Assembly: GCF_016793485.1 (NCBI RefSeq)
Contig: NZ_JAEULZ010000049.1
Coordinates: 1-64,000 of the forward strand
Direction: 5' to 3'
Source: Mesorhizobium sp.
Lineage (GTDB): Bacteria; Pseudomonadota; Alphaproteobacteria; Rhizobiales; Rhizobiaceae
DNA: 64,000 nt
Notes under the pieces: model-generated
What the model was told of the DNA's origin: nothing
What the model saw: only the letters and a program-made list of their open reading frames with translations
Database searches by the model: none
Translations under genes and position numbers: made by a program
Shown: positions 12,646 to 38,649 of the stretch, piece by piece
Layout of the letters: the number at the start of each line of letters is the position of its first letter
How positions within the stretch are numbered: the first letter of the stretch is position 1

Positions 12646-12765
12646 ACCTTTCCTATACCCCTTCCTTCCAGCGCCTATTGGATGTGCCGACCCGGCCGAC
12701 CTATTGTCGACGGGATATGGGAGGGAAGGCTCGCCAAACTCCCAACCTGCTCGAGGAACGCAGAT

Positions 12766-14211: not shown

Positions 14212-14225
14212 GGTGATCGACCATC

Positions 14226-15071
14226 ATGTCAGATCAGGCGAAGACGGATATTCCTGCCGACGTGCGCGCCGCATGCGAGGCGTTTGTCGGCAATTGCCGG
14301 GAGATCGAGGATACGCTCGCCCCGGAAGCTGCTGACAAGCTCGCAGTCCTTCTTGGCCACGAATTGCCCAGCGAGCACCTGCCACCCACATATCACTGGG
14401 CCTATTTCAACAAGGGCATTCCTGCGCGTGATGTCGGCGCGGACATGCATGAACGGACGGGAATTTTTCTGCCGGCCGCACCTTTTCATCGCCGCATGTG
14501 GGCGGCTGGAGATGTCTCGATCTTCCAGCCGCTGCGCATTGGCGTTCCGGCGCGTCGGCGTTCAACCGTGACTTCAGTAGAGTTCAAGGACGGCAATTCG
14601 GGCCAGATGTGTTTCGTCACCGTCTCTCACGAGATCGAACAGGACGGCGCCCCCAGCATCTCCGAGAAGCAGACCGTCGTCTATCGCGATCGGGGCGGTC
14701 CTGAGAAACCGTTGAGGCAGCCAAGCGATGCCATTCCCGAAGGCTACTTCGTGCATCCCGACAGCGAATTGTGGTTCTATTCCGCCATCACCTACAACGG
14801 ACACCGGATCCATTGGGATCGTGATTTCTGCCGGAACGTCGAAGGCTACCCCGACCTCGTCGTCCACGGTCCGTTGATGGCGACGAAGCTGTGCGAGGCG
14901 ATGCGCGGCGAAAAGCTGGTGTCCCAGCGCTTCAGCTTCCGCGCGCAGGCACCGGTCTTCACGACATCCCCTATCCGGATCGTGACGGGCGTGCCGGATA
15001 ACCCACGGCATGGCGAAATCCAGCGGTCGGACGGCGTCGTGTCGATGACGGCAAAACTGACGTTGCTCTAG
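14226..15071 (+). CDS. HTD2/MaoC-type CoA-thioester hydratase (mesaconyl-C4-CoA hydratase-like)
   Basis: A 281-residue double hot-dog protein. The C-terminal half carries the hydratase block FYSAITYNGHRIHWDRDF followed by EGYPDLVVHGPL, as in mesaconyl-C4-CoA (3-methylfumaryl-CoA) hydratase and HTD2-like FAS1 dehydratases. It would add water to, or remove it from, a branched or dicarboxylic enoyl-CoA in the cytosol. It follows the aldehyde dehydrogenase in one transcript and converges with the minus-strand operon 52 bases away. Nearby CoA-transferase, acyl-CoA dehydrogenase and CitE-like lyase make a C5-dicarboxylate type pathway plausible. Confidence 0.85.
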   Translation: MSDQAKTDIPADVRAACEAFVGNCREIEDTLAPEAADKLAVLLGHELPSEHLPPTYHWAYFNKGIPARDVGADMHERTGIFLPAAPFHRRMWAAGDVSIFQPLRIGVPARRRSTVTSVEFKDGNSGQMCFVTVSHEIEQDGAPSISEKQTVVYRDRGGPEKPLRQPSDAIPEGYFVHPDSELWFYSAITYNGHRIHWDRDFCRNVEGYPDLVVHGPLMATKLCEAMRGEKLVSQRFSFRAQAPVFTTSPIRIVTGVPDNPRHGEIQRSDGVVSMTAKLTLL

Positions 15072-15122
15072 GCCCGACAGGCTGCGGAAGACTCGGACCG
15101 AGACGCGGCGACGGAAGCCCTG

Positions 15123-16430
15123 TTATTTGCGGAACGCGCTGCCTACCTCGCGGGCGCTTTTGCCCGTCAGATCGGCGAACGCCTGCCAAAGTCCAGCACC
15201 GCGCGCTCCGATGAGCGCTTCCGCCTTCGCGCGCAGCTTGCCGGCGAGCACATGCTGCGGCAGCTCGGCGTCCAGGTCGTGATACAGCTTGATTTTCGCG
15301 CCATCCTTCAGCGTCAGGACGCCCCGCGCCTGCATGTCGGTCAGCGCATCGTCTTCGATCACCTCGACCTTATTGGCGAATGCCGAAAGCGCGCCGTCGT
15401 CCGACAGGCTGTCCTGATATATCCTGTCATCGCCCGTACGATCGCCGCGGATCGTCATCCCGGCCAGCCAGTTATAGCTGAACTTCACCTCGAGGCCCGT
15501 GCGCGGCCGCTTTATGTCACAGACCTTCAGCCAGCGTGGATTGGTGCGCAGCACAAGCGCGGCCACGTCGTTGAGGCTCTGCCCCTTCAGGGCGTCGGCG
15601 CTGAGGAGCGCCTCGATCATCGCATGAGTGCCGTGGCAGCAGGCATGAAGTTTGTATTTGTTGTCCTCGAAAATGAAGCTCTCGATGGACCTGTCGCCGG
15701 CTGCCTGCTCTGCGGCAGGCGAGTGTGTCGTGATGAAACCCTGCATCCCCTCAAGGCCGTCATCGGAAGACGTCATGCCCAGTGAAGCAAGCTTGGCACA
15801 CTCGACACCGTTCGAGGCAGCGACGCCTGCATTGTAGGGCTTTCCCATGGTGCCGAATTGCGACTTGAGCCCGGACGCCCTTGTCGAGCACAATCCGATT
15901 GCATTGCGCAGCTGCTCGCGGCTCAAGCCATAGAGCCGTCCTGCAGCAACGGTCGCGCCGAAGGCGCCAGCTGTAGCCGTCTGGTGAAAACCGAGATTGT
16001 AGTGCGCCCTGCCCAGAACGATCCCGATCCAGATCGCAGCTTCGGCGCCGACCAGAAATGCTTCCACCATGGCTTCTGCTGGCGCGTCGATCTCCTCGGC
16101 CACAGCGAGCGCTGCCGGATAGATAGCGACAGACAGATGCCCGATATGGGCGAAATGCGTGTCGTCGTAGTCCAGCGCATGACTGGTTGCTCCGTTTACA
16201 AGCGCGGCCATCCGGGCCGGGGCCATGCCGTCGCCCACGACGGAAGCCACCCCCCTGCCCGCCTCCAGGTCCGCAAGCATGCGAAGTTTAACGGCTAGTG
16301 GCTCTTCGGTTCCGGCAATGCCGCACGCCATCCAGTCGAGCAGCGAAAGACGGGCCAGGCTCATTGCCCTCTGCGGCAGCCGATCGGCCGGCAACTGAGC
16401 CAGATCGATGACACGGTCGATCAACGACAT
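15123..16430 (-). CDS. MmgE/PrpD-family protein (2-methylcitrate dehydratase / cis-aconitate decarboxylase-like)
   Basis: A 435-residue cytosolic protein with the helical PrpD core: LDWMACGIAG near the N-terminus, SHALDYDDTHFAHIGHLSVA in the active-site region, and KLHACCHGTHAMIEA later. Family members dehydrate 2-methylcitrate, decarboxylate cis-aconitate or isomerise related acids. ATG at 16430 has CAGGAG 6 bases before it; an ATG 15 bases further up has no such site. It is the last gene of the long minus-strand operon, 27 bases after the symporter gene. It is not with methylcitrate synthase, so a role other than propionate metabolism is likely. Confidence 0.88.
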   Translation of the reverse strand: MSLIDRVIDLAQLPADRLPQRAMSLARLSLLDWMACGIAGTEEPLAVKLRMLADLEAGRGVASVVGDGMAPARMAALVNGATSHALDYDDTHFAHIGHLSVAIYPAALAVAEEIDAPAEAMVEAFLVGAEAAIWIGIVLGRAHYNLGFHQTATAGAFGATVAAGRLYGLSREQLRNAIGLCSTRASGLKSQFGTMGKPYNAGVAASNGVECAKLASLGMTSSDDGLEGMQGFITTHSPAAEQAAGDRSIESFIFEDNKYKLHACCHGTHAMIEALLSADALKGQSLNDVAALVLRTNPRWLKVCDIKRPRTGLEVKFSYNWLAGMTIRGDRTGDDRIYQDSLSDDGALSAFANKVEVIEDDALTDMQARGVLTLKDGAKIKLYHDLDAELPQHVLAGKLRAKAEALIGARGAGLWQAFADLTGKSAREVGSAFRK

Positions 16431-16457
16431 GGAGAACTCCTGCATAAGACGGCAGCG

Positions 16458-18311
16458 TCAGCGCGCACGGCCGTTGACCCTGTCGAGACCCGCCGCGAGC
16501 CAATCCGGCCGGACGCGCTTGCCGTCCTCAAGTTCGATCGACCGGATCGAATCCTCGCTTGTCCGCCCGAAGCCGACGCGAAACGCCATCCACCAGACGA
16601 GCACGACGCCGAGAAGCCAGAAGAGGATCTGCCAGACCCAAAGAGAGGGAATACCGAGGGTTGCTTCCCCAGAGGTGAAGATCGGATGGCTGAAGAAGGT
16701 GTTGCCCAGGACTGCGCCCGGCCCGTAGGCAAGAAAGCTCCACAGCAGCATGAGCGCCCAGAACAGGCCTCGGCCGCCAACCGCCATGCCCGTCGCCTGG
16801 AATAGCGCGTCATGCAGACGGTTGCGCTGCAGATTGTCGGGCGCGCGAAGCGTCGCGGCGGAGGCGAGCAGAACGACAGCCAGATTGATCGCCAGCCCCC
16901 AAGCGGCGGAATGGATGGTCAGAGGCCAGCGGCCCCACGGCAAATTGACGAACAGTCCCTCGAAGAGGATCAGCCCAGGCGGTTCGGTGAAGAAGACGAT
17001 CAGCATGCCAAGCGTCATTCCGGCGATGACCGCGCCACGGCTGATCCAGCGCAGGAAGGTCAGGCCGAGGAAGGCCGGCAGGAGCTGCACAGCGAGCGGC
17101 AGGGCGACGCTTCCCAACACGGCCGAGACCAACGGCACGAAGCTCGCCATGAAGGCGAGGAGAAAGAAGGCGAAACCGATGGCTACCCGCGCTGAAAACC
17201 GCTGCTCCTGTTCGGACAGTTCCGGGAACAGGTAGCGGATCACCAGCTCGCGCGTGACAAGGATCGCGCCACCCGTGACGAAGAAGCTGACTGCAAGCAA
17301 GGCGCCAACAAGCAGCATGACGATGAGGCCGACACCCGCCAGAGGCTCGAAGGCGTAGAACTGCGCGGCCAACGCCAAGGGACCCTCGGCCATGCGGGTA
17401 GCGAGCAAGGGAGCACCAAGGACGAAGATGCCCGTCAGCAGCCCGGCGGCAAGCCATACGGTCGATAGACCGACGGCTCGACCGGGACTTGCGGTCTGCC
17501 CGAGATAGAGGGTGGCGGGGCTGAACACGATGCCGAGAAGGCCGATCACGGACGACGACAGGGCAACGGTCGTGAAGATGCCCGTGGCCGGCATCTCCTT
17601 GCCGATGCCAGCGCTGTACTGGATGACGCCGGGAAGGCGGTCCCAAAGAACGCCGTCCTGCACGGGGATTGGCGCGGCCGGAAAGCCGGGCGCCGATGCC
17701 AGTATCTCGGCGAGGATGGTCGATCCCGGAAGAAGCAGCGCCAGCAGCACGGCCTGCATCGCGAGGGTCATGATCGTTGCGCGCCAGCCGCCGATGATCG
17801 CGGGAATGGCGAGCGAGATCGCCAGCAGCCAGACGCCGGCCGCGCGCGGCAGCAGTCCGTTTGTCGCTCCTTCGAGCAACAGGGCAGCGGATGAAAGCAG
17901 GTTCGCCGAGAACGGTAGCGCGAACAGCACCGCCAGTCCGAGCATGACGACGCGAAGCGTTACGGAGCCGTAAAATTGGCCAAGCGCCTCGCCGGGGGTC
18001 GACAGACCCGCGACGCGCGCAACATACCACATGCGATTCCACAGCAGCAGCGCCGCCATCGAGGCGAGGACGAATCCGACCGCGAGATGCGAGGCCTGTA
18101 GACCGAACCGCGTAACCATCGCGAGTTGCGTTTCCAGCCCGAGCCCGGTCGCAACAAGCGCAGGCAGGAGGAACATCGCTGCCCATCCCGGCAATGCCTG
18201 CGCGCCGTCGAGGAAGTCCGCCGGACGCGCTTCCTGACGAGCGGTGATCGCGGCGATATAGACGCCGTAAAGCGCCAGCAGGGTCAGGATGGAGAGCAGC
18301 AGTGGCGTCAT
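16458..18311 (-). CDS. sodium:solute symporter (SSS family)
   Basis: A 617-residue integral membrane protein with about 13-14 hydrophobic helices. The SSS mark is STPGEALGQFYGSVTLRVVML (helix 3-4 region), with the usual polar breaks in helix 1. ATG at 18311 overlaps the previous stop (ATGA). The frame is open to 18653, but that stretch is the shadow of the small membrane protein gene. The N-terminus (Gln-Glu-rich segment followed by ADFLDGAQALPGWAAM) is typical of SSS leaders. It would bring in an organic acid or similar solute with Na+. A secondary transporter inside an operon that already encodes an ABC importer suggests a second related substrate or product exchange. Confidence 0.88.
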   Translation of the reverse strand: MTPLLLSILTLLALYGVYIAAITARQEARPADFLDGAQALPGWAAMFLLPALVATGLGLETQLAMVTRFGLQASHLAVGFVLASMAALLLWNRMWYVARVAGLSTPGEALGQFYGSVTLRVVMLGLAVLFALPFSANLLSSAALLLEGATNGLLPRAAGVWLLAISLAIPAIIGGWRATIMTLAMQAVLLALLLPGSTILAEILASAPGFPAAPIPVQDGVLWDRLPGVIQYSAGIGKEMPATGIFTTVALSSSVIGLLGIVFSPATLYLGQTASPGRAVGLSTVWLAAGLLTGIFVLGAPLLATRMAEGPLALAAQFYAFEPLAGVGLIVMLLVGALLAVSFFVTGGAILVTRELVIRYLFPELSEQEQRFSARVAIGFAFFLLAFMASFVPLVSAVLGSVALPLAVQLLPAFLGLTFLRWISRGAVIAGMTLGMLIVFFTEPPGLILFEGLFVNLPWGRWPLTIHSAAWGLAINLAVVLLASAATLRAPDNLQRNRLHDALFQATGMAVGGRGLFWALMLLWSFLAYGPGAVLGNTFFSHPIFTSGEATLGIPSLWVWQILFWLLGVVLVWWMAFRVGFGRTSEDSIRSIELEDGKRVRPDWLAAGLDRVNGRAR

Positions 18312-18766
18312 CTGCGACCTCCGCGATGCGGAAGCCGCGACGCCGGCCGCAGATTGTTGTCGCGAACAACGTCGAACTGTTCGAAAGCCCCCCGCGCGCC
18401 AAAGGCGATCACCAGATAGGCGACGACAGCCACAACAAGCGATATCAGGCCTAGTCCGACAGGAAGGAATATGCGCGCGCCGAGACCCGGCGGGCCGACG
18501 AGAACCGCCAGTAACAAGGCGAGCAACGCTGCAGCGAAAGCGACGATCCCGAGAGCCCTCTCGCCCGTTGTGAAGCCTTTCCCGAGGACAGCGTTTGCGA
18601 TGATATGGGCGACGAAGGCTGCGATGATGACGGCAAACCCCGAGAATATCCACCAGTCTCCGCCGGACGACAGCCCCCTGTGGAGCAACGTCGCCGCGAC
18701 GAAGGCCGAGGGCGTCCAGATCGCCATGACCAGCGCATGCCGATCGAGTCGGTCATAGGGTTTCAT
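18308..18766 (-). CDS. small four-helix membrane protein paired with the SSS symporter
   Basis: A 152-residue hydrophobic protein with four predicted helices (about residues 11-32, 37-62, 70-94, 98-122) and a short basic, Arg-rich tail. I do not recognise the family. Its stop overlaps the symporter start, so the two are translationally coupled, as are the small accessory subunits that precede some SSS transporters (DUF4212/DUF485 types are shorter, with two helices). A symporter subunit is the simplest reading (inference). It begins 24 bases after the flotillin-like gene. Confidence 0.75.
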   Translation of the reverse strand: MKPYDRLDRHALVMAIWTPSAFVAATLLHRGLSSGGDWWIFSGFAVIIAAFVAHIIANAVLGKGFTTGERALGIVAFAAALLALLLAVLVGPPGLGARIFLPVGLGLISLVVAVVAYLVIAFGARGAFEQFDVVRDNNLRPASRLPHRGGRR

Positions 18767-18790: not shown

Positions 18791-20977
18791 TCAGTCGTCG
18801 CTGTCCTTGTCGTCGGGCTTGGGCGGAAAGTTCTTGAACTGCATTCCGCCCGCAGCGCCGAGGTTCTTCAGCGGCAATCCGATCTCTTCCATAAGGCCAT
18901 CCACGAACGCCACCTGCGTGCGATACTTCATGGCGGAATTCACCACCTGGTCGGAAATGTTTCCGCCGCCACCACCGCCGGAGCCGCTCTCCGACGGACT
19001 GTTGAGGCCGGGCAAGCCATCGACCTGCAGGATCTTGATGGAGTCGATATTCTCCATCGGCTTGACCTGCTCGCGGATGATCTCCGGCAGACGGGTGACC
19101 ACGCCTTCGAGGATCGCGCTGCGCCGGCTTTCCTCGCTGCGCACGTTCTCCGCCTCGTTGAGCTTGCGATTGCCGCCTGAATCGACCTCGTAGCGGAACT
19201 CGGCTGCCTTCGCCTCGGCGATCTCCGCTTCGGCGCGAAGCTCGCTCGCCGTCTTTTCGGCTTCCGACTGCTTGACCACGCGGATCGCGTCGCGCTCCGC
19301 ACGCGCCGTCGCGTCGATGATCTCGACGGTCTTCGAGCGGTTAGCCTTTTCCTCGGCGCGGGATGTCTCAATCTTCTCCTGCGTCAAAGCAAGCTTGCGC
19401 TGCGCCTCAGCCTCGTTGGTCCGCACAACTGCCTCGTCGATCGCCTTGTTGACCACGGCGATGAGGCGTTCCTTGTCGGCGATCTCGATTTCCATCGCCT
19501 GTTCGATCTCGAAGCGCTCGATGTATTTGCGTGCAGCGATCCGCAGTTCCTCGATCTCGCGTTCGGCGACGACGCGCGCGTCTTCGACCTCGCGGAAGCT
19601 CGCGGTCTCGGCCAGCTTGATCTTGTGCTGGCGGTTGATTTCGCGCGAGCGGATTTCCTCTTCGGTCTTGAGGCGCTCGTTTTCAACAGCGAGCTTCTTG
19701 GTCAGTGCCGCGCGCTCGGTCTCGGCCTTCGCCTTCTCGCTGGAAACCTTGATCTCCTTCTCGCGCTCCACGCTGGCGAGTTCGACCAGCTTGCCGGTCT
19801 GGATGCGTGCAGTCTCCACATCCTGCTGCGTCGCAAGGCGTGCGCTCTCAACCTCACCGTCGGCCTTGGTCTCGTGCAGAGCGATCTGCTGACGCGACGC
19901 GATCTGCGCTTCACGGATTTCGTGCTCACGCTGGATGCGCTCAGCCTCGACCTGCTGGCGGGCCTGGATACGCTCGTTCTCGATACGCGTCTTGGACGTG
20001 ATCTCGGTCAGTTCAGTATCGCGCTGGCGTTCGATCTCAAGCGCCTTCACGTCATTCTCGGCACGGATTCTCTCCTCGTCGATCGCACGTCCCTTGGCAA
20101 TCAGAACGCGCTCAGACTCTTCCTCGGCCTTCGTGCGCGACTGTGTGATGGCGATCTGCGATGTCGCACGCTCGGCCTCGATGACCGCCGCCTGCTGCGC
20201 CTTCTTGGTCTCGATGTCGCGCGCCTGCTCGATCCGGACATATTCGAGATCGCGGTCGATTTCGATCACGCGCTGCTCGGCCTCGAAGTCGCGCAGCTTG
20301 ATCTGTACCTTGGTCTCGTTCTCGATCTGATTGCGCAGCTTGCGACGCTCTTCCGTCTCCTTGACGATCAGCGTCAGGCCCTCGGCGTCGAAATGGTTGG
20401 ACGGGTCGAAGACGGAAATATCCGCCTGGTTCAGCGAGGTCAGCGCCGCTGTTTCCAATTCAAGCCCGTTCATGGCCAGAACGCCGGTCACAAGTTCGGA
20501 CACCTGCTTGATGAAGGACGCACGGTTTTCGTGGATCTCGTTCATGGTCATGGTTGCAGTGACGGAAGCCATCGCATCGACCAGACGACCCTGGATCACT
20601 TCCTTCAGGGCGACGGGATCCTGGGTGCGGGCGCCCAGCGTACGGGCGGCGGTCGAGACGCCCTCTGTCGAGGCGATCACGCGCACGAAGAACTCGGTGG
20701 TAATGTCGACCCGCATCTTGTTCTTGGTGATGAGCGACTGCTCGCCCTGGCGGCGAACCTCAATCGGAACGGCGTTCATGTTCACGACGGTAATGTCGTG
20801 GATGATCGGGATCACCAGCGCGCCGCCGCCCATGACGACACGCTCGCCGCCCGAGCCCGTGCGAACGAAGCTTTGATCCTTCGATGAGTGGCGATACAGC
20901 CAGTGCAGCAGGTAGACGCCCACTGCGATCAGGATCGTCAAAAGTATGATGATGGCGATGATGTCGGCACCGGTCAT
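18791..20977 (-). CDS. flotillin/SPFH-domain protein with long coiled coil
   Basis: A 728-residue membrane-anchored scaffold. One N-terminal helix (about residues 5-27) is followed by the SPFH/band-7 domain (about 40-210; TTEFFVRVIASTEGVSTAAR), then some 400 residues of Glu/Arg/Ala-rich heptads with repeated EAERIQ- and EVESARL-type units, and a Gly-rich loop near 675 before an acidic tail. Bacterial flotillins (FloT/YqiK type) organise lipid microdomains and gather membrane proteins. Spacing is 33 bases after the opsin-like gene and 24 before the small membrane protein, all on one strand. It probably clusters the membrane proteins of this operon (inference). There is no NfeD partner here, although flotillin genes are often paired with one. 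Confidence 0.9.
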   Translation of the reverse strand: MTGADIIAIIILLTILIAVGVYLLHWLYRHSSKDQSFVRTGSGGERVVMGGGALVIPIIHDITVVNMNAVPIEVRRQGEQSLITKNKMRVDITTEFFVRVIASTEGVSTAARTLGARTQDPVALKEVIQGRLVDAMASVTATMTMNEIHENRASFIKQVSELVTGVLAMNGLELETAALTSLNQADISVFDPSNHFDAEGLTLIVKETEERRKLRNQIENETKVQIKLRDFEAEQRVIEIDRDLEYVRIEQARDIETKKAQQAAVIEAERATSQIAITQSRTKAEEESERVLIAKGRAIDEERIRAENDVKALEIERQRDTELTEITSKTRIENERIQARQQVEAERIQREHEIREAQIASRQQIALHETKADGEVESARLATQQDVETARIQTGKLVELASVEREKEIKVSSEKAKAETERAALTKKLAVENERLKTEEEIRSREINRQHKIKLAETASFREVEDARVVAEREIEELRIAARKYIERFEIEQAMEIEIADKERLIAVVNKAIDEAVVRTNEAEAQRKLALTQEKIETSRAEEKANRSKTVEIIDATARAERDAIRVVKQSEAEKTASELRAEAEIAEAKAAEFRYEVDSGGNRKLNEAENVRSEESRRSAILEGVVTRLPEIIREQVKPMENIDSIKILQVDGLPGLNSPSESGSGGGGGGNISDQVVNSAMKYRTQVAFVDGLMEEIGLPLKNLGAAGGMQFKNFPPKPDDKDSDD

Positions 20978-21009: not shown

Positions 21010-21699
21010 TCAGTACCGGTCCTGGCCGGCGACAGCCAGGACGATCAGCGACGGGATGATGAGATTCACGATGTCAAAAACGCTGTAGAGAACGATGATC
21101 GACGGCGCCTGTCCGACACCGATGACGACATCGACGAAATGCAGGATCGGGTAGACGGCCCATCCCAGCGTGAAGAGAAGCCTGATCCAGAAATAGCCGA
21201 AGCGGACCGGCCGCGATGACTTGCGAACGGCCTCAGGCATGGCGCCGAAATACATCTCGCCAAGGATATAGAGCCAGAAGCCAATCGAGATCAGCACGCC
21301 GAGCGTCGGATTGAAGAAGCCGGCGTCGCCAAGCCATCGCCCGAAGACCATCAGCAGCGAAGCGCCCACCAGACGCCAGAAGACGCCGACCGGAACCGGG
21401 CCTTGCGTGCGCGCAAAGAAGTAGACGGCCGCAATCTGGAGCGGATGCACCGTGTACCAAGCCGAGAAACGGACGCCTGCGCTTGCCGCTCCCGAAGTCA
21501 GCCAATACCCGGTCGCGCCGGCATAATAGATCGATGTGACGAGGCACGCCGCCCCGACCAGTGCCGTCGGCACCCTCCAGCGTTCATTGGACCAGCTCAG
21601 GCCGACAAAGCAGAGGACCGCAGCAGCCAGGCTCATCAGCGCCAGCCCGGTCAGCGAGGTCGATACGACATCCTTGGACGTATAGAGGGTGGTGAACAT
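21010..21699 (-). CDS. microbial-rhodopsin homologue lacking the retinal-binding lysine
   Basis: A 229-residue protein with seven hydrophobic helices. Helix E has FWLYILGEMYFG and helix F GWAVYPILHF, matching proteorhodopsin AWVYMIYELWAG and GWAIYPVGYF. In helix C, VRFSAWYTVHPL keeps R77, W81 and P86, but the proton-acceptor Asp is A80 and the donor carboxylate is also Ala. In helix G, proteorhodopsin has DFVNKI; here it is DIVNLI, so D209 is kept and the Schiff-base Lys is L213. There is no Lys anywhere in helix G. It cannot form a retinal Schiff base at the usual site and no beta-carotene cleavage gene is nearby. ATG 21699 has AAGGAA 5 bases upstream; GTG 21702 is the alternative. The gene lies between a permease and a flotillin gene in one operon. 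Function unknown: receptor, chaperone or transport accessory are options. Confidence 0.82.
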   Translation of the reverse strand: MFTTLYTSKDVVSTSLTGLALMSLAAAVLCFVGLSWSNERWRVPTALVGAACLVTSIYYAGATGYWLTSGAASAGVRFSAWYTVHPLQIAAVYFFARTQGPVPVGVFWRLVGASLLMVFGRWLGDAGFFNPTLGVLISIGFWLYILGEMYFGAMPEAVRKSSRPVRFGYFWIRLLFTLGWAVYPILHFVDVVIGVGQAPSIIVLYSVFDIVNLIIPSLIVLAVAGQDRY

Positions 21700-21708
21700 C
21701 ACATTTCC

Positions 21709-23121
21709 TTAGACAGTAGACCGGATGTGCGGCGAACGGCCGTACAGGGCGACCATGGGAAGGATCAGCAAGCCGAAGATGAACTGCTGCCACTCGTACT
21801 GGAGACCGATGCCCAGCAGGAAAGACGTAAGGACCTGTAGAACGAGGACGCCGATGGCGGTGAAACCGTAACCGCCATTGCCGCCGAGCAGAGACGTTCC
21901 GCCAATGACGACGGCGGCCAGCGTCGTGAAGAGATAGGGATCGCCCACGCCGATGAACGCTCCACCCGACCAGCCTAGCAGCAAAGAGCCGGTGAGCGCG
22001 GCGAACACGCCGGAGATGACGTAGCATGCGACCCAGTATTTGAACTCGCTGACGCCGATCAGGCTCGCCGAGCGGCGATTTCCGCCGAGCGCATAGAGAT
22101 TGCGGCCCCATGACGTGATCCTGAGGCCGACGATGAGGATGATCGCAAGGACGACCCAGATGATGATGGTCGGCGGGAATGGCAGGCCGAAAAAACGGCC
22201 GTTCATGGCGGCGAGGTTGGCAAGCCATGGCGGCACCGTGCCGAACACGTTGCCCGCATACTGCGAGCCGATAGAGGTCATGATCTGGGTGAAGCCCGCC
22301 ACGGCGAAGCCGGTGCCAAGCGTAACGATCAGCGCCTGCCCCTGCAGGCGGAAGCTCATGATGCCGTTCAGCAGCCCGATGATGCCGCCCAGCACCAATA
22401 TGAAGCCGAAGGCGACATAGGACGGAACGCCGACCGTTATCAGGAACAGCAGAGCGATGTTGGACGAGCCAATGACGAAGGGGATCGACAAGTCCAGCCC
22501 GCCCAGCAGCGCCACCATCGTCTGGCCGATCGATGCAATGCCGAGGAATGCTGCGAAAAGCAGGATCGCGCGGATGTTGGATGCTGAGAGGAAGCCTTCG
22601 ATCGAGAAGGCAGAGATGACGATCAGCGCAAACAGCACAATAAGGCCGATGAAAGCGCTGCGGCCCGCCGCGAAGTAGCCGGATATCTTGAACGCGAAAA
22701 CGAGGATGAGCTCGAGGATCAGGAACGCGATGAGGTTCTTGATCGACCGGAATTCGGGAACGCCCGCCGTGATCAGCAGATACAGGATCAGCAGGCCGGC
22801 CATGGCAATGATCATGACGCGGTTGTTCTGCCACAGGCCCCTGACGTGGCCGGCCTCTGCTTCGACTTCGCCCTGAGAGCCGGTCGCATCGCGCGCCTCG
22901 AAGACGACCGCGATGTAGTTCAGAAGGATGAACAGCACCGCTGCAAGCAGCACGGTAAAGAGAATGACCTCCTGCGCGGCAAGCCTGCCCTGCGAGAAGC
23001 CGACGCCGAGCCCGATCGCCGCCACTATGAGTGATAGAACGATGTTGAGCCATACGAGCGCGACCGATTTCGGGATCGGCAGCAGCGCGAAACGGGCGCG
23101 TTCGATCTGAGGCTCGCTCAT
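21709..23121 (-). CDS. ABC importer permease, ribose type (RbsC-like)
   Basis: A 470-residue inner-membrane permease, longer than the usual 320-350 because of an extra N-terminal portion with two helices. The BPD_transp_2 core shows ALLGGLDLSIPFVIGSSNIA and GGTSLLGGNGGYGFTAIG, equivalents of the GxDLSVGS and GG.S..GG motifs of sugar permeases. It overlaps the preceding permease gene by 4 bases and ends 9 bases before the opsin-like gene, so the two are almost certainly on one mRNA. Confidence 0.9.
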   Translation of the reverse strand: MSEPQIERARFALLPIPKSVALVWLNIVLSLIVAAIGLGVGFSQGRLAAQEVILFTVLLAAVLFILLNYIAVVFEARDATGSQGEVEAEAGHVRGLWQNNRVMIIAMAGLLILYLLITAGVPEFRSIKNLIAFLILELILVFAFKISGYFAAGRSAFIGLIVLFALIVISAFSIEGFLSASNIRAILLFAAFLGIASIGQTMVALLGGLDLSIPFVIGSSNIALLFLITVGVPSYVAFGFILVLGGIIGLLNGIMSFRLQGQALIVTLGTGFAVAGFTQIMTSIGSQYAGNVFGTVPPWLANLAAMNGRFFGLPFPPTIIIWVVLAIILIVGLRITSWGRNLYALGGNRRSASLIGVSEFKYWVACYVISGVFAALTGSLLLGWSGGAFIGVGDPYLFTTLAAVVIGGTSLLGGNGGYGFTAIGVLVLQVLTSFLLGIGLQYEWQQFIFGLLILPMVALYGRSPHIRSTV

Positions 23122-24461
23122 GAGCCCCTCCCGAACAGGTGGAATTCAGGCTGGATGATCGCGGCTGCGAACAGCGCAACGATCAAAACCGCAACGACAA
23201 CGTAGAGGAACAGGCTCATCCTCCGCGCGCCCGCATCGGCATTGATCAGCCTGGCGGTTGCAACGAAGACGATTGCGGCCAGTCCGACGAGAAGGGCTAT
23301 GCCTTGGACGGAGTTGAAGAATTGTCCCGTCCCACTGCCGCCGAAACGAGCTGGCGGTATCAGGAAATAACGATCGGTCAGTGCGCCCGACACGAGTTGA
23401 TGCTCCGTGCCGCCATAGGTGCCGCTCGTCGCCACGTGTAGCATGATGCCGAGGACGACCAACCCGAGCACGAGGAACGCGCTCCAGGGGGATATGAAGC
23501 TCACATAACGCGAGATGACCGGGACAAGCAGCGTCAGGAGAAGCGACAGGACGAGAATGATCCCATAGACCATCTGCGTCATGAAGGCCTGGATAGCGCC
23601 GAAATTGAAGGTCGCCAGGACATAGCCAATGAGCCAGAGGCTCACCGCGCCCATCAGCGCACCTGTGGCTCCGCCACGACCGCCTGACAAGGCAACGCCG
23701 CCGAGAACCAGCGCGGTCACCGCCGTCAGGGTCATGTTCTGGCCCTGCGTGGGATCACCGGACGAGATCAGAGCCGTGTAGCAAAGCGCGCCGAGCGCAA
23801 CATAAATACCTGCAATCAGATGCGCGCCGATGCGCACGATGTCCGTCTTCACGCCCGACGTCCAGGCCGCGCGCTCGTCGTAGCCCATCATCTTGAGGTT
23901 GGAATAGAACGTCGTTGCCGTGAAGAGATACCAGCCCGCAGTCGCCAGCACGATAATCAGCAGGACCGGCGAGAAGATGCTGGTGCCGCTGCCCCAGCTC
24001 ATCATGAATTCGGGAGCCGAGCCGCCGGGGCGCGGCAAGATCACAAGGTTGATGCCGGTGAGCGCCAGGAAGCCGGAGAGCGCGACGATGATCGGCTGCA
24101 CCCTGACGAAGATGATGATCAGCGCGAACAGCAATTGATAGGCCATACCCAGGCCGATGGCGACGATGAAAGTCGCGATGGGGCTGGCGAGATATCCGGC
24201 CGTGCTGAGCTTGACGACGACAACGTTGATGAAGGCAAGCAGCGGACCAACCGCAAGGTCCACCGTACCCCGCCCGGCGACAGCCAGTACCATCAGGGCA
24301 TAGGTCGCCATGATCAGCGGCGCGGCGACGATTATCGCGCTGCCGATTCCCGCCGGCGTCACCAGGCTCGGTCCACGGATCACGGCTGTCGAAAGCAACA
24401 CCGCGATCAGCGCGATCGGAACCAGAAGGTACGCGTTCGAGGACGAAGAGGACTTTGCCAT
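23118..24461 (-). CDS. ABC importer permease, ribose type (RbsC-like)
   Basis: A 447-residue permease of the BPD_transp_2 family, again longer than typical. Conserved parts are VAGRGTVDLAVGPLLAFINV and VLGGVALSGGRGGATGALMG. It should pair with the product of the next gene as a heterodimeric channel. About 66 bases separate it from the alpha/beta hydrolase gene upstream; the ribosome site is weak. The carrier class normally moves sugars, AI-2 or purines, but here the co-encoded hydrolase, PEBP domain and possible SCP2-like protein argue for a less polar ligand (inference). Confidence 0.9.
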   Translation of the reverse strand: MAKSSSSSNAYLLVPIALIAVLLSTAVIRGPSLVTPAGIGSAIIVAAPLIMATYALMVLAVAGRGTVDLAVGPLLAFINVVVVKLSTAGYLASPIATFIVAIGLGMAYQLLFALIIIFVRVQPIIVALSGFLALTGINLVILPRPGGSAPEFMMSWGSGTSIFSPVLLIIVLATAGWYLFTATTFYSNLKMMGYDERAAWTSGVKTDIVRIGAHLIAGIYVALGALCYTALISSGDPTQGQNMTLTAVTALVLGGVALSGGRGGATGALMGAVSLWLIGYVLATFNFGAIQAFMTQMVYGIILVLSLLLTLLVPVISRYVSFISPWSAFLVLGLVVLGIMLHVATSGTYGGTEHQLVSGALTDRYFLIPPARFGGSGTGQFFNSVQGIALLVGLAAIVFVATARLINADAGARRMSLFLYVVVAVLIVALFAAAIIQPEFHLFGRGS

Positions 24462-24527: not shown

Positions 24528-25481
24528 CTAGAGATCGATGACGCGGCGATCCGACGAACGTTCGCCACGGCTGCCCGATGCTGCGCCTTCCTGCCGACGC
24601 GGCGACCAGTCGCGCGCGTTTCCACCGCGGCGCTTCGGATCGTTCTGGATGATCTTGCGCAAGATCGGCATGATCACCTCCTTGAACTTCTCCGGGTCTT
24701 CCGACGTCGGGAAATGCCCGCCACCGAAGATCACGCATTCGGAGTTCTTCACCTTTTCGGCGGTGCGCTGGGTCATCTCCGGCGTACAAGCGAAATCGTA
24801 CTCGCCGGTGAGGAAATAGACCGGAACCTTGCCCGAGATCTTGTGAACCTTGTCGCGGAAATCGGAATCGACCGAGTAGAAATACAGGTCGCCCTTGAAG
24901 ATGCCGGGGCCGCCCTGCGCGTAGTACCACCAGGTCTCCCAGCGGTACTCGTCCGGGCTGTCAGGCGCCATCAGGCCGAACACCGACGTCGCCACTGCCT
25001 CGCCGCCATGGATGTGCGGATGATGCAGGGGATCGATGTGCCAGCCCGGCGAGTGGTCGCAGCCTTCCAGCGAGATCAGCGCCGAATACTCGTTCTCGTA
25101 GCGAAGCGCGAGGTCGAGGCAGATGTTGCCACCCATCGACTGGCCCATGACGACAGGCTTGTCGAGTTCGAGTGCACGGCAGAACTCGAGGATGAACTCC
25201 GAATAGAAGTTCGTCGTCAGCTTGTATTCTTCCTCTTCCAGATGCCAACCGGCCGGCGGCAGCGACTTGCCGTGGCGCGGAAGGTCAAACGCGATGACGC
25301 GGAAGTTCGCGGTGATGTCGGTGTCGTTGAGCTGGTGGCGGTATTCGCGGCCGTCAGCGCCTGCGGTGTGCAGGCACACCAGCGGAATGCCCTCGCCGGC
25401 TTCTTCGTAGTAGGTCCGATAGGTCTTGCCCTGGCAGGTGACATAGACGTAGCGGCCCACGATCTGATCGTGTTTGTTCAT
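24528..25481 (-). CDS. alpha/beta-fold hydrolase
   Basis: A 317-residue serine hydrolase. The nucleophile elbow is GQSMGG with S115, the acid residue is probably in TGEYDFACTPE (about 230), and the His is in FGGGHFPTSEDP (about 265). The oxyanion strand LHTAGADGREY replaces the usual HG motif. No signal peptide, so it acts in the cytosol. AAGGAGAG lies 7 bases upstream of the ATG. The C-terminus (after about 285) is basic and low-complexity. It probably hydrolyses an ester, lactone or C-C bond in the imported compound; its place between the transport genes suggests the first catabolic step. Confidence 0.88.
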   Translation of the reverse strand: MNKHDQIVGRYVYVTCQGKTYRTYYEEAGEGIPLVCLHTAGADGREYRHQLNDTDITANFRVIAFDLPRHGKSLPPAGWHLEEEEYKLTTNFYSEFILEFCRALELDKPVVMGQSMGGNICLDLALRYENEYSALISLEGCDHSPGWHIDPLHHPHIHGGEAVATSVFGLMAPDSPDEYRWETWWYYAQGGPGIFKGDLYFYSVDSDFRDKVHKISGKVPVYFLTGEYDFACTPEMTQRTAEKVKNSECVIFGGGHFPTSEDPEKFKEVIMPILRKIIQNDPKRRGGNARDWSPRRQEGAASGSRGERSSDRRVIDL

Positions 25482-25493
25482 CGCTCGCTCTCC

Positions 25494-25898
25494 TTAAACT
25501 TCGCGCATCAGGGACAGCATCCAGTGCATGGCCCGCATGTTCTGCCAGAAGGTCAGCTGGTTGCCTTCGATCCGAAGCTGCTTGTGTAGAGGATGCGCCA
25601 TGGCCCAGATGTCGTTGAACATGGGCGGCGGCGTCTTCTGGCTGAATTTCGACCATGCCGACGACGGGGCGCGCAGGGCGAATTCATAGCCGAAGTCCGA
25701 AGGCTCAAGACCTTCCGAGATCTTGGCGACCTTGCCTTCGCGCATGTGCAGGAGATAGTCGACGTCATCGACGCCGAGCACGAACCTTGCATTGAAGAAA
25801 CGGCCAAGCTTGGGCATGACGCGGTCTTCATTGACCCGGCGTGCCCATCGCTCGATCCATTCCAGATCGATGGATTTTCTGCTGCCATATTTGCTCAT
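25494..25898 (-). CDS. small protein, possibly SCP2-like lipid carrier
   Basis: A 134-residue soluble protein with no signal peptide. The pattern of a beta-strand with dG turn (YLLHMREGKVAKI), a central helix region with FALRAPSSAWSKF, and a C-terminal LRIEGNQLTFWQNMRAM resembles the sterol-carrier-protein-2 fold seen in small bacterial lipid-binding proteins. This is a by-eye resemblance, not a firm family call. AGGAG lies before the ATG; the gene sits 12 bases ahead of the hydrolase and 16 after the ATPase gene. A role handing a hydrophobic substrate to the hydrolase would fit (inference). Confidence 0.7.
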   Translation of the reverse strand: MSKYGSRKSIDLEWIERWARRVNEDRVMPKLGRFFNARFVLGVDDVDYLLHMREGKVAKISEGLEPSDFGYEFALRAPSSAWSKFSQKTPPPMFNDIWAMAHPLHKQLRIEGNQLTFWQNMRAMHWMLSLMREV

Positions 25899-25914: not shown

Positions 25915-28077
25915 TCAGGCAGCCGGCAACGCCGCCTTGGCCGGACCGTAAATTGCTGTGAAACTTGTCTGGTCGATCGTCACCGGGAGGATCGCGCTGG
26001 CGAAAGCGGACAGATCCGCGTCCGGAGCCAGATCGATCGAGCGTGCCTTCAGGGCATAAAGCGTGAAGACGTATCGATGGGCGCGATCCGGTGGCCACGG
26101 GCCGCCGTAGCCCCGGCCGAAGCCCGGAATCCTAAAGGTTACGTAATCCGAGTTCAGCTCCTGCGAACCGGAAGGCATTGCCGCCGTCATGGATGCTCCC
26201 TCGGCCAGTCTGCGCGCGTCGGCCGGGATGTTGTAAACCAGCCAGTGCGCGAAGCTGCGCGGGAAATTGAACTCGGCGGGCACGTCGGGGTCCGTAATCG
26301 CAAGCGCGAAGCTCTGCGTGCCTTCCGGAACACTCTCCCACTCAAGCGCTGGCGAACGTCTGTTTCGTTCCGTGAAGTGATCGGGAATGATACCGCCCTG
26401 CGCAATGTCGGGCGCTATCAGAAGAAAGCCCGATTGGTTCATTGATATCCTCCGGTTGATGGCAGGTCGCAGGCGTACGGTACGAGGCACCGGACGGCCC
26501 TCGTCGATCACGATACGCCGGCTGCCCTTTTCATGATGCTCTTCGCGCGCCTCGCCGGGAAGCCGTGCATCAGGCTTTCGTCCGAAGGTTGCGTTGAGGA
26601 TGACATGGCCATCGAAAGGCGGCTCGAAGGTGGACGAGATGACACCGCCCCTGAACACAAGAACCCTGTTGCACAGATCCATGAACTCCTCGATCTCCGA
26701 GGAGAGAAATACCACGGCGTTGCCGCGCGCAGCGAACTCACGAAGGTTCCGATAGAGATCAAGCTTCGCGCCGATGTCGATGCCGCGCGCCGGATCGTTG
26801 AGGATAAGCACGCCAGGCCGCTCTGCAAAGGAACGCGCGATGAGGACTTTCTGTTGGTTGCCACCGGACAGCGAGGTGATCAGGTTGCCGGAATGGCCCA
26901 TCTTCGTAGCCAGTTTTCCGGTCTCGTGCACGAAGATCGGATCGAGCTTGCGCCGGTCTATGAAATTCAGGAAGCCGCCGATCGAATAGTCCGGATAGAT
27001 CGGCATGACCATGTTTTCGAAGATAGAGAGATTTGGAAAAATACCCTCCTTCTTCCGGTCACCCGAAACATAGGCGATGCCGTTCTCGCGCGCTGTGGCG
27101 AGGCTCGTGATCGGCTCGGCCTTCTTGTCGCGAACACGGTGGATCTTCCCATCCAGAAGTCCCTGGACACCAGCCAGCGCACGCACGAAGTCGGCCTGCC
27201 CCTGCCCGTCGAGGCCGGTCACGCCGACCACTTCGCCGGGATAGAGGTTGAAATCGAACCTTGCGGTCTCTGGCCAGACGCGCGCATCCGTCAGGCGCAG
27301 GATCGGACGATCGGACTGTTTCTCTACCGGCTTGCTGGACGAATGGGCCAGTTCACGTTCCGGCCCGGCGATCAGGCGCAGGATGTTTTCTTCAGTGATG
27401 TCTTCCTTGTCGAGCGTGCCGACCGAAACGCCGTCACGCAAAACAGTTGCGCGATCTGCTATTCTGACAAGTTCAGCGATGCGATGCGTCACGATGAAGA
27501 TGGCACAGCCGCTCTTCTTCATCTCGCGCATCTTGGCGAACAGCCGCTCGGTCGATTCGAAGTCGAGCGCAGCCGAGCTTTCATCGAGGATCAAGACACG
27601 CGGATTCGTCAGCATGCCACGCGCGATGGTGATCCACTGCTTGATCGACAGCGGAAGCTCGCCGACGATCGTATCGGGATCCAGGTCGAAACCGAGCAGG
27701 TCGCTCATGACCTTGCGCGCACGCTCGTAGCGGACTTCATGCGATTCCGCCGCGCCGAACAGCCCGTCAGCGCCGAGAAACAGATTATCCATGACCGAGC
27801 ATTCGTCGGCCACCAGGACTTCCTGATAGACGTTTGCGATCCCGAGCGCCCTCGACTCGGAAGGCGTGGTCGCGCTCTTGCCGAATATCGAGACCTGACC
27901 CCGATCGGGCACAAGGACGCCGGAGATGACCTTGGCGAGGGTCGATTTTCCCGAGCCGTTGCCGCCGATGATCGCGTGAACCTCGCCCTCATAGGCGCGA
28001 AGACTCACCCGATCCAAAGCCACCGTCGGACCAAAGGTCTTCCTGACATCGACCAATTCTGCGGCGACTGCAGACAC
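25915..28077 (-). CDS. ABC importer ATPase (RbsA-like, two nucleotide-binding domains) read in frame into a YbhB/PEBP domain
   Basis: One uninterrupted frame of 720 residues. Residues 1 to ~505 are a double-cassette sugar-type ATPase: first Walker A GGNGSGKSTLAK, an unusual first signature LSIKQ in place of LSGGQ, Walker B VLILDESSAALD, and a second signature LSGGNQQKVLIARS. About 40 Arg-rich residues follow without family resemblance. Residues ~546-720 are a complete YbhB/YbcL phosphatidylethanolamine-binding (Raf-kinase-inhibitor-like) domain, with ALAITDPDVPAEF and the FAHWLVYNIPAD core. The start is GTG at 28077. A Shine-Dalgarno site before the internal ATG at 26442 means the PEBP domain may also, or only, be made separately. 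A true fusion and a lost stop codon look the same in sequence. Confidence 0.85.
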   Translation of the reverse strand: MSAVAAELVDVRKTFGPTVALDRVSLRAYEGEVHAIIGGNGSGKSTLAKVISGVLVPDRGQVSIFGKSATTPSESRALGIANVYQEVLVADECSVMDNLFLGADGLFGAAESHEVRYERARKVMSDLLGFDLDPDTIVGELPLSIKQWITIARGMLTNPRVLILDESSAALDFESTERLFAKMREMKKSGCAIFIVTHRIAELVRIADRATVLRDGVSVGTLDKEDITEENILRLIAGPERELAHSSSKPVEKQSDRPILRLTDARVWPETARFDFNLYPGEVVGVTGLDGQGQADFVRALAGVQGLLDGKIHRVRDKKAEPITSLATARENGIAYVSGDRKKEGIFPNLSIFENMVMPIYPDYSIGGFLNFIDRRKLDPIFVHETGKLATKMGHSGNLITSLSGGNQQKVLIARSFAERPGVLILNDPARGIDIGAKLDLYRNLREFAARGNAVVFLSSEIEEFMDLCNRVLVFRGGVISSTFEPPFDGHVILNATFGRKPDARLPGEAREEHHEKGSRRIVIDEGRPVPRTVRLRPAINRRISMNQSGFLLIAPDIAQGGIIPDHFTERNRRSPALEWESVPEGTQSFALAITDPDVPAEFNFPRSFAHWLVYNIPADARRLAEGASMTAAMPSGSQELNSDYVTFRIPGFGRGYGGPWPPDRAHRYVFTLYALKARSIDLAPDADLSAFASAILPVTIDQTSFTAIYGPAKAALPAA
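26440..26453 (-). promoter_or_regulatory. internal ribosome-binding site and start for the YbhB/PEBP domain
   Basis: On the minus strand GGAGG (26453-26449) lies 6 bases before an ATG at 26442 that begins exactly at the PEBP domain (MNQSGFLLIAPD). Starting here gives a 175-residue protein, the normal YbhB length. The upstream linker has no family resemblance, so this start is probably used. Confidence 0.6.
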
Positions 28078-28182: not shown

Positions 28183-29370
28183 TCACTTCGCAGCCGGGTG
28201 CGACTTGGGATCGTACTTTTCCGGGTCGGCCGGACGCAGGAAGAAGTTGTCGAGGAACTCCTTGCCAGCCCACTTTTCGATACCCGGGTGGTACCAGCCG
28301 CTGGACTGCTCGGAGCAATCCTCGGGGATGGCGGCCATCATCTCCTCGCGGTTCATCGTCACCGGCGTCGTCAGGATCGACTGGATCTTCGGACCCTGGC
28401 CCTGAAGCGTACGCATCATGATGTTCCAGATCATCTCGAAGTCATCGCCCGGAGGCCATGCGTGGATCGCTCCCGACACATAGTCGGGATTTTTGCGCCA
28501 GTAGCAGAGCGCGCCCTCCTCCGAGCCGATCGTGATCGGAACCATCGGCCTGCCAGACTGAAGCAACGCACGCAGGCCACCCAGCTCGGAAGCCGACTGG
28601 ATCAGGATGCCGTCGAGCTGGCCGGGATTGGTCGCGAGCCAGCGCTGCACTTCAGCCTGCGCGACCTGATCGGTCCACATGCCAGAGATCGGACCCTCGA
28701 CCTTGATGTCCGGATATTCCTTCATAGCCAATTCGATGCCGAGGTTCTGGCTGTCGGATGCCGAAGCGCCGGGGATGCCCTCGACATTGAGAACGCGGCC
28801 CTTACCGCCGATTTCCTTCGCCATCCAGTCGCCCATCATGCGACCGCCGACGACGAAGTTGGCGGAGGAATTCACCGCGTAAGGGCTGGTCAGATAGCCG
28901 ATGCCGGAGAACACCGGAACACCCTTGTTGTAGGCGTATTCAACCGAAGCATTGAGCGCTGTCGGGTTCGAGCAGCACACGATAACCGCGTCGACACCCT
29001 GATCCACGAGCTGGCGGATCTGCTGGATCTGCGTGGCGTCGTTCAGGTTGGACTGCGTGATAATGACGTCGCTGACCAAGCCGAGCTCTTTCCACTTCGG
29101 AATGAGCACGTTCTGCAGACGATCCATGACGCCGGCGCGCCAAGTGTTACCCGCATAGGACGACGCGTAGCCGATCTTCCACGGTGGCGGATTTTTCGCG
29201 ACCCAGTCGCGATATGCGCTGTCGCCGATCGGTTGGTTCGGATCGATCAGGTCCTTGTTGTAGAGCTTGTCCTGGATGTCCTGCGGCAGTTCATCGACGC
29301 CGGCATGGACCACGGTTGCCACAAGGGCCGCGCAACAAAGCGTCGACAGCCGTAGCATGAATGACTTCAT
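28183..29370 (-). CDS. ABC importer solute-binding protein, Peripla_BP_4 (ribose/AI-2-like fold)
   Basis: A 395-residue periplasmic protein with a normal Sec signal (MKSFMLRLSTLCCAALVATV, cleavage probably after VHA near residue 23). The type-I periplasmic fold is shown by IGYASSYAGNTWRAGVMD, QLVDQGVDAVIVCCSNPTAL and the late GSEEGALCYWRKNPDYVSGA. It is some 70 residues longer than RbsB, with a C-terminal extension of about 60 residues. ATG 29370 has GGGAGGAA just upstream; a longer frame begins at 29472. It is the first gene of the minus-strand operon and divergent from the acyl-CoA dehydrogenase gene. The ligand is not deducible, but the hairpin after it suggests strong expression. Confidence 0.9.
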   Translation of the reverse strand: MKSFMLRLSTLCCAALVATVVHAGVDELPQDIQDKLYNKDLIDPNQPIGDSAYRDWVAKNPPPWKIGYASSYAGNTWRAGVMDRLQNVLIPKWKELGLVSDVIITQSNLNDATQIQQIRQLVDQGVDAVIVCCSNPTALNASVEYAYNKGVPVFSGIGYLTSPYAVNSSANFVVGGRMMGDWMAKEIGGKGRVLNVEGIPGASASDSQNLGIELAMKEYPDIKVEGPISGMWTDQVAQAEVQRWLATNPGQLDGILIQSASELGGLRALLQSGRPMVPITIGSEEGALCYWRKNPDYVSGAIHAWPPGDDFEMIWNIMMRTLQGQGPKIQSILTTPVTMNREEMMAAIPEDCSEQSSGWYHPGIEKWAGKEFLDNFFLRPADPEKYDPKSHPAAK

Positions 29371-29666
29371 GGTTGGTTCCTCCCATTGGTAACGAACGGA
29401 GGCCGCTCGTTCCCGAAACATATATTCCACCTCAACCGGAGCGGAGAAAGAGAAAACGATTATACCCCCCATATAGCACGGATATGCGTGGCCGTGCGGC
29501 GGGCTCGGCGCGCGACCTGCGTATTTGAGGCCTCACGCGGGGTATATCTGCGTTCTATGGGAGGTAGGCAAATCGGCTATTTGCAACCGGTTCCCGCCCC
29601 GCGCCATATTCCGCACGAAAATCTCCCGCCCTGCGGGATAATAAGAAAAGTCATCAGGAGCGGGAA
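29371..29666. promoter_or_regulatory. divergent promoter region between the minus-strand operon and the acyl-CoA operon
   Basis: These 296 bases contain no convincing gene. An inverted pair TATACCCC (29461-29468) and GGGGTATA (29539-29546) and a hairpin TCCCGC-CCT-GCGGGA (29624-29638) are the only symmetric elements seen. No regulator gene is adjacent; the nearest ones belong to other clusters. Shared control of the two operons is inference. Confidence 0.4.
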
Positions 29667-34681: not shown

Positions 34682-34746
34682 TTCCACTTTCCTCCACTTT
34701 ACAATCAGTTTTCCAGCCGACATCGGCCCTTCCCGGACGGTACCCG

Positions 34747-38329: not shown

Positions 38330-38649
38330 CACTCTCCCGCCAGAGCCGCCGCGCGATCGGGCATGACGAGATTGAAGAACTGCTTCTGTCGCTCGCCGGT
38401 CGACATCAACGCCTTCAACCCTTCGGTTGTCCGGCGGTAGTGCTCGGTCTGCCGATGCGCATCGACGGCGGCCGCGTTCTCGAAAACTTCGTAGATCACG
38501 AAATGGTTTTCGTCCTCGGGGTCCTGCAGCACATCGAAACGGTAGTTGCCGGGCTCTGCGCGGGTGCCTTCGTAGTTCACACGAAACACATCGAGGAATT
38601 GCTCCACGCAGCCCGGTTTGAGGCGGATGTGCACAAGCTGAACGAACAT
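38329..38649 (-). CDS. lsrG: LsrG, phospho-AI-2 isomerase (ABM fold)
   Basis: A 106-residue antibiotic-biosynthesis-monooxygenase-fold protein. The sequence follows E. coli LsrG: VFRVNYEGTRAEPGNYRFDV, then IYEVFENAAAVDAHRQTEHY. LsrG isomerises phosphorylated DPD to 3-hydroxy-2,4-pentadione-5-phosphate, removing the signal that relieves LsrR repression. Here it is the first gene of the importer operon, whereas in enterics it is the last. Confidence 0.9.
   Translation of the reverse strand: MFVQLVHIRLKPGCVEQFLDVFRVNYEGTRAEPGNYRFDVLQDPEDENHFVIYEVFENAAAVDAHRQTEHYRRTTEGLKALMSTGERQKQFFNLVMPDRAAALAGE

Follow-up and report, generated by a model that had tools for sequence, protein, structure and literature searches.

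What can an opsin do once it has lost the residue that holds retinal? The question is raised by one gene in a stretch of 64,000 nucleotides from a Mesorhizobium sp. (contig NZ_JAEULZ010000049.1, positions 1 to 64,000; hereafter the window), whose product of 229 residues, FAR, carries leucine in place of the retinal lysine.

A FArhodopsin with leucine in place of the retinal lysine

The FAR gene lies on the minus strand at 21010..21699, within an open reading frame spanning 21702-21010; its ATG at 21699 matches the coordinates of an earlier note on this DNA, from which the strand was absent, and an AGGA ending six bases before this ATG makes the start site plausible. The note had described a rhodopsin-family protein, and the two checks of the fold that it proposed, a profile search and a structural superposition, bear the description out: the Pfam profile Bac_rhodopsin (PF01036) matches FAR with an E-value of 2.1e-8 and 34.4 bits, above the cut-off of 24.6, and the AF2 monomer model (pLDDT 90.8, pTM 0.88) has the seven-helix opsin fold of type 1 rhodopsins. 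The model superposes with a TM-score of 0.91 on PsFAR, whose deposited structure consists of five chains and which is also the closest solved relative by sequence (9r21, E 4e-33), proteorhodopsins coming next. Scaled by query length, the TM-score is 0.89 on green proteorhodopsin (7b03) and 0.87 on a retinal-free proteoopsin with decanoate (8cnk). The NCBIfam search returned no family for FAR, and a literature search outside bioRxiv and most subscription papers found no paper on 9r21-9r23.

With flotillin encoded by the next gene and PsFAR as the closest match among solved structures, the window protein is a FArhodopsin, a member of a clade beside the proteorhodopsins. This family was described in 2023, in a paper whose main text presents its members as widespread in marine and fresh waters and states that most of the diverse freshwater ones have Gln, Thr, Leu or Arg instead of the lysine (Haro-Moreno et al., 2023; PMC10308929). 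A lysine-less FArhodopsin, including one with Leu, is therefore already known, in agreement with the earlier note, which mentioned that lysine-less opsin relatives had been noted before; what the present analysis adds is the clade-wide Leu/Arg pattern, the purifying selection, the lack of a second rhodopsin and the context of an ABC-importer operon. As in the published family, FAR lies directly upstream of flotillin and on the same strand, and SCP2-type, translocator and sodium symporter genes belong to the cluster, the first being recognized by fold and the last through a homologue. Unlike the marine members, the hosts are Rhizobiales and Rhodobacterales with genomes of 2.3-6.3 Mb (7 of the 18 relatives are named strains, not marked as MAGs), and no proteorhodopsin was found alongside FAR; marine single-cell genomes with a FArhodopsin are stated to encode a bona fide proteorhodopsin at another locus (PMC10308929, main text), which is an observation on marine members and no requirement on the sequence.

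The phylogeny of lysine-less homologues, also proposed in the earlier note, was computed from 63 rows (39 FARs and 24 proteorhodopsins, on which the tree was rooted) after omitting 10 proteorhodopsin rows judged near-identical and 3 duplicate rows. The FARs are set apart from the proteorhodopsins with support of 100/93, a value accompanied by a program warning of long branches meeting. The lysine-less homologues form one part of the FAR tree (100/100), divided into Leu (100/99) and Arg (99/97) clades, and the remaining FARs (90/79) bear Lys; on a tree rooted in this way, one loss of the lysine suffices for the Leu and Arg clades. The dN/dS ratio of FAR lies between 0.014 and 0.186 in 9 pairs, several dS values being near saturation, and by this measure the gene is under purifying selection. 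A pseudogene or frame error is ruled out, the ratio being low and the FAR frame free of stops in 18 related loci; given these ratios and the leucine in all 21 clade members, FAR is neither a product of chance nor a sequencing slip.

The Schiff-base site and the former retinal pocket

The alignment was compared at 23 chosen sites across 21 Leu, 10 Arg, 8 Lys-FAR and 34 proteorhodopsin rows, L073, L075 and L076 being omitted from the Leu clade as duplicates of L013, L015 and L017. At the Schiff-base lysine column FAR has Leu213 (codon 21063-21061), the end of the motif DIVNL, and the column reads Leu in 21/21 rows of the Leu clade, Arg in 10/10 of its sister clade, and Lys in 8/8 Lys-FARs and 34/34 proteorhodopsins. 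The replacement of the retinal lysine by leucine, as claimed in the earlier note, is thus a property of the whole clade, and the alignment of R77, W81, P86, E148, W180, Y183, P184 and D209 with proteorhodopsins holds as well; a lysine at the Schiff-base position, which the note had named as one result that would overturn its reading, was not seen, since the column aligns this Leu to the Lys of every proteorhodopsin. A lysine elsewhere in helix G is ruled out, the helix-G stretch of the window protein having none. Photoactive type 1 rhodopsins are marked by the helix-G lysine, and without it FAR can be no normal pump or photosensor, as had been concluded from the letters alone. The acceptor and donor carboxylates of helix C, which mark proteorhodopsin proton pumps, are likewise missing, their places being taken by A80 and A91 (the two alanines of the earlier note), for which we assumed the proteorhodopsin residue numbers.

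Other sites changed together with the lysine. The counterion Asp is missing in 31/31 non-Lys rows and present in the other 42/42, and the column of Arg121 (codon 21339-21337) reads Arg in the same 31 rows, Gly in 34/34 proteorhodopsins and Ala, Glu or Gly in Lys-FARs; we take this position to be Gly122 of the retinal pocket in bacteriorhodopsin numbering. The lost counterion and the Arg at the pocket-glycine column are obstacles to retinal beyond the missing lysine, and it is by the lysine, both helix-C carboxylates and this arginine that FAR differs from 7b03 and 8cnk, which it resembles in fold. By alignment, His85 (codon 21447-21445) and Arg121 correspond to H84 and E120 of PsFAR (9r21, 9r23), from which the window protein thus differs in having Arg in place of Glu120; the title of entry 9r23 names PsFAR H84V/E120G, with both residues changed together. 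Gly147 is a mark of the whole family, found in 39/39 FARs as against Tyr in 34/34 proteorhodopsins. The aromatic pocket, which the earlier note regarded as kept, is retained at W81, W180, Y183 and Y205, but the helix-F Tyr has become His187 and the pocket glycine Arg121.

The earlier note had allowed that such a protein may bind retinal non-covalently, and FAR might in that way still sense light, for which the retention of most aromatic pocket residues and an RPE65-family oxygenase gene in one further (twentieth) Leu-type genome, G491, could be adduced. We consider this very improbable, because lysine and counterion were lost together and every one of the 31 non-Lys members has Arg in the column of the pocket glycine, and because neither Blh (PF15461), nor an RPE65-type oxygenase, nor a second rhodopsin was detected in the 19 Leu-clade genomes. 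The Blh search covered 40 genomes or records and included 15 of the 23 proteorhodopsin genomes as a positive control, 10 of which gave a match; besides the Leu-clade genomes (0/19), three g70 genomes and three plasmid records gave none.

FAR is the sole PF01036 match in its own 5.2-Mb genome, and with this profile no second rhodopsin was found in that genome or in those of the 18 close relatives, several of which are metagenome bins and for which completeness was not stated; FAR itself was overlooked in 2 of these 18, so that PF01036 under-counts divergent FARs. A mixed complex in which FAR complements a proton-pumping proteorhodopsin, the role suggested for FArhodopsins from the sea, would suit two HIMB59-like genomes (a label given from size and a DNI motif), in which FAR occurs with a proteorhodopsin and Blh. 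A helper of a co-resident pump misfits the present lineage, since a second rhodopsin was found in none of the 19 clade genomes, nor in the three g70 genomes (1e-6) or the order sample's seven Arg-type genomes (1e-15); here this hardly credible reading is contradicted unless the assemblies miss a gene. The genomes of genus g70 (L033-L035, L061-L063; 4-4.5 Mb) have a Lys-FAR and RPE65-family genes, with no other rhodopsin or Blh match. Their FARs, in which the Lys is retained as well as the counterion Asp with its Thr, may still take retinal, since Val and Ala occupy the two pocket positions changed in PsFAR H84V/E120G.

Other opsins without the lysine offer partial parallels. The Rh-noK proteins of betaproteobacteria stand in tandem with an active rhodopsin (PMC10308929, main text); FAR, compared with them by description, is not in tandem, and its genome has no second rhodopsin match. 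Haloarchaeal and fungal opsin-related proteins are type 1 opsin homologues that also lack the retinal lysine and have been proposed to act in taxis (PMC4915679), whereas FAR is encoded next to flotillin and the genes of an importer.

FAR may instead hold another ligand where retinal once sat, which is the main rival to the reading that we favour below, in which FAR is a subunit of an importer. As a seven-helix chemosensor, FAR would bind a small acid (perhaps the substrate of the importer, or a fatty acid) in the former retinal pocket and signal to the importer or flotillin. Within the Leu clade Arg121, Asp125 and Asp190 are each present in 21/21 rows and His187 in 20/21, and a retinal-free proteorhodopsin has been solved with decanoate in its pocket, the carboxylate on the lysine (PMC11322631); FAR has this entry, 8cnk, among its best structural matches. 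We judge the chemosensor unlikely, as Pfam finds no transducer or kinase among the ten block genes compared. Moreover, the placing of the four polar residues along the cavity derives from bacteriorhodopsin positions, by which they presumably lie near the former pocket.

The importer operon and its conservation

The earlier account of FAR held for the fold and the missing lysine but overlooked the flotillin neighbour and the ABC-importer operon. All genes of this operon lie on the minus strand. First in gene order come a periplasmic substrate-binding protein (SBP, 28183..29472; Peripla_BP_4, 3.2e-35) and an ABC ATPase of 720 aa (25915..28077; ABC_tran, 2.4e-36). At the C terminus of the ATPase there is a phosphatidylethanolamine-binding-protein-like domain (PF01161, 6.1e-31), which was examined in the window protein; ATPases of the Leu clade measure 719-760 aa except in L018 (536), and the range in Arg and Lys loci is 545-609 aa, with one protein cut by a contig end. 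A protein of 134 aa follows (25494..25898), with a predicted sterol-carrier-protein-2-like fold (AF2 pLDDT 83.9; Foldseek matches 1wfr and 2cx7, TMq 0.64-0.67); Pfam SCP2 matches 2 of 20 relatives weakly and not the protein of the window, which is thus predicted to be sterol-carrier-like by fold, not by sequence. Next come an alpha/beta hydrolase (24528..25481), whose nearest NCBIfam families, all below cut-off, include 3-oxoadipate enol-lactonase, and the permeases PERM1 (447 aa, 23118..24461) and PERM2 (470 aa, 21709..23121), the latter with BPD_transp_2 at residues 183-454 and about 130 additional aa at its N terminus. Directly downstream of FAR lie flotillin (728 aa, 18791..20977; Pfam Flot 2.8e-33, Band_7 3.3e-5), a small protein of 152 aa (18308..18766) and an SSS-type symporter-like protein (16458..18317, start approximate), which has no Pfam match of its own and is recognized through its L064 homologue, a match to SSF.

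By Pfam, the set of a CUT2-type importer is complete (SBP, ATPase, two permeases), and the double ATPase and two BPD_transp_2 permeases resemble those of CUT2/ribose-type systems. The differences lie in the ATPase, with its PEBP-like domain, and in the permeases, which exceed those of an ordinary sugar-type ABC importer in the same window (33647-38332), used as a length control; its permease frames measure 354 and 340 aa, the first checked against Pfam and the second judged by length only. The operon proteins submitted to NCBIfam (PERM1 excepted) gave matches below cut-off only and no substrate, so that the importer has no named substrate family. The main text of PMC10308929 contains neither "ABC" nor "permease", mentions "inner membrane translocator" once and does not discuss an ABC importer; literature searches outside bioRxiv and most subscription papers gave no such discussion either. 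Between 14000 and 31000 no known RNA reached its gathering score. Promoter-like patterns numbered 0 against 3.1 in shuffles, terminator-like ones 15 against 11.1 (sd 3.5). Genes for aldehyde dehydrogenase, MmgE/PrpD and acyl-CoA dehydrogenase flank the operon (12682-16445 and 29667-30830), and some recur in other loci.

The order SBP-ATPase-SCP2-like-hydrolase-PERM1-PERM2-FAR-flotillin-small protein-SSS is found, all genes sharing a strand, in 15 of the 18 related loci, and is complete in L028 too; of the exceptions, contig ends truncate L016 and L017, and the SBP match of L007 is on the other strand. Adjacency of PERM2, FAR and flotillin reaches further: the three genes keep their order in 12 of the 13 FAR loci of the order sample other than the window's own (the thirteenth, L084, hits a contig end), in three Arg-type plasmids (Pararhizobium, Martelella and Hoeflea; four of six plasmid hits were examined, H3 and H5 being left out) and in five Lys-type genomes of the class sample. 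In the Lys-type genomes PERM1-PERM2-FAR-flotillin is retained, the SCP2-like and hydrolase genes come after flotillin, SSS is reversed in g70, SBP and ATPase are reversed in the HIMB59-like genomes, and the small protein, which has homologues in Leu and Arg loci, has none detected in five Lys loci. Because the other block genes vary in presence, strand or place, the common core is PERM1-PERM2-FAR-flotillin only. At L084 (G411) the FAR is of the Lys type, has a TAG within its frame and lies beside a shortened flotillin match at the contig end, which would reflect decay or an assembly error.

The catabolic genes nearby vary between clades. On the Arg-FAR plasmids (L029-L031) genes for the lactonase attM and for an iron alcohol dehydrogenase lie in the vicinity, and in Martelella also one for a succinate-semialdehyde dehydrogenase, a set reminiscent of gamma-butyrolactone breakdown; a substrate of this type was not carried over to the importer of the window, whose 64 kb contain no attM match. 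In the FAR tree the window protein and those of L002 and L003, all from Rhizobiaceae, are placed among Rhodobacterales, with other Rhizobiales further off, and none of the 15 other genomes of the same family listed from the order sample, one of them of the same genus, gave a match; from this placement and absence, the operon seems to move as one piece.

Flotillin also bears on another reading, according to which FAR serves flotillin alone as an organizer of membrane patches and the importer is a bystander in the operon. FAR and flotillin are adjacent in 18/18 related loci, and a membrane-microdomain role has been proposed for FArhodopsins (PMC10308929, main text). Even so, we hold this reading to be quite unlikely, since FAR mostly lies closer to the permease gene (from the PERM2 stop to the FAR start there are 9-12 bases in 16 of 17 loci and 61 bases in L015, as against 19-60 bases from FAR to the most upstream start of flotillin) and since the permease extensions track FAR too.

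The permeases as a probe, and a proposed role for FAR

PERM2 was used as a probe independent of the rhodopsin. A full-length match was found in 6 of 385 genomes of the class (E<=1e-214) and in 13 of 347 of the order (E<=1e-198), amounting to 18 distinct genomes, as the window genome belongs to both samples, and FAR was present in 6/6 and 13/13, respectively. A fourteenth FAR genome of the order sample, G411, has no PERM2 match, its FAR running into the contig end. Five genomes rank next by their permease (3e-144 to 6e-133), which matches only from residue 131-138 on; no FAR match was found in them, and the stretches read from four of these five loci contained neither FAR nor flotillin, the small protein or SSS. 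The four FAR-less loci contain the ATPase and two short permeases (4/4), mostly the SBP (3/4) and in half of the cases the hydrolase and SCP2-like genes (2/4); aldehyde dehydrogenase directly follows the permease in three, and the fourth (G265) ends 95 bases past it. PERM2 measures 454-474 aa in FAR loci and 333-339 aa in FAR-less ones; the frames of L109 and L111 (FAR-less) and L063 (Lys) count longer, their starts not being fixable, and the former two match PERM2 only from residue 138-140 on. Among the Leu and Arg loci measured, PERM1 has 440-477 aa, as against 321-324 aa without FAR; in the Lys-FAR operons (L061-L065) it reaches 757-797 aa, about twice the usual length.

In the PERM2 tree the FAR-linked permeases form one clade (97/99), with those of Leu and Arg loci nested within it (96/95), the order being FAR-less outside, then Lys, then Arg and Leu. 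The permease and rhodopsin trees thus agree in their main splits, the former being rooted on very long outgroup branches and, unlike the FAR tree, not uniting the Lys rows in one clade.

On balance we lean towards the view that FAR, having lost its chromophore, would work as a light-independent accessory membrane subunit of the SBP-dependent ABC importer, together with flotillin. Its seven-helix body would pack on the extra segments of PERM2, on flotillin or on both, and this packing may stabilize the importer or cluster it in a flotillin patch. The importer would handle a small organic acid, ester or lactone, and the SCP2-like fold, the hydrolase and the lactonase of relatives point weakly to a rather lipophilic one. 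In favour of the subunit we count the fold, the coupled changes of sites, the selection, the gene neighbourhood, the absence of FAR with short permeases and the agreement of the trees; against it count the variable wider block, the reading of four FAR-less loci only, and the FAR of G411 without a PERM2 match. The linkage between FAR and the importer is drawn from genes and trees, both AF2 runs being of monomers, and neighbours and trees can agree without contact, because the genes of a compact operon are transferred together; FAR may also serve flotillin rather than the permease, because flotillin too comes and goes with it. As a tentative history, and one that we would not press, a relative of the proteorhodopsins may have been recruited to an importer, along with flotillin and newly gained segments of the permeases, initially with its Lys and possibly as part of an importer controlled by light (as perhaps still in g70), before it went blind a single time, in the common ancestor of the Leu and Arg clades.

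Rhizobiales and Rhodobacterales strains in which a lysine-less FArhodopsin occurs and no other rhodopsin was found offer a setting for deletion of the gene with readouts on importer and flotillin and no background from a light-driven pump. If FAR is indeed a subunit of the importer, the opsin fold would have an assayable, non-photochemical job in bacteria.
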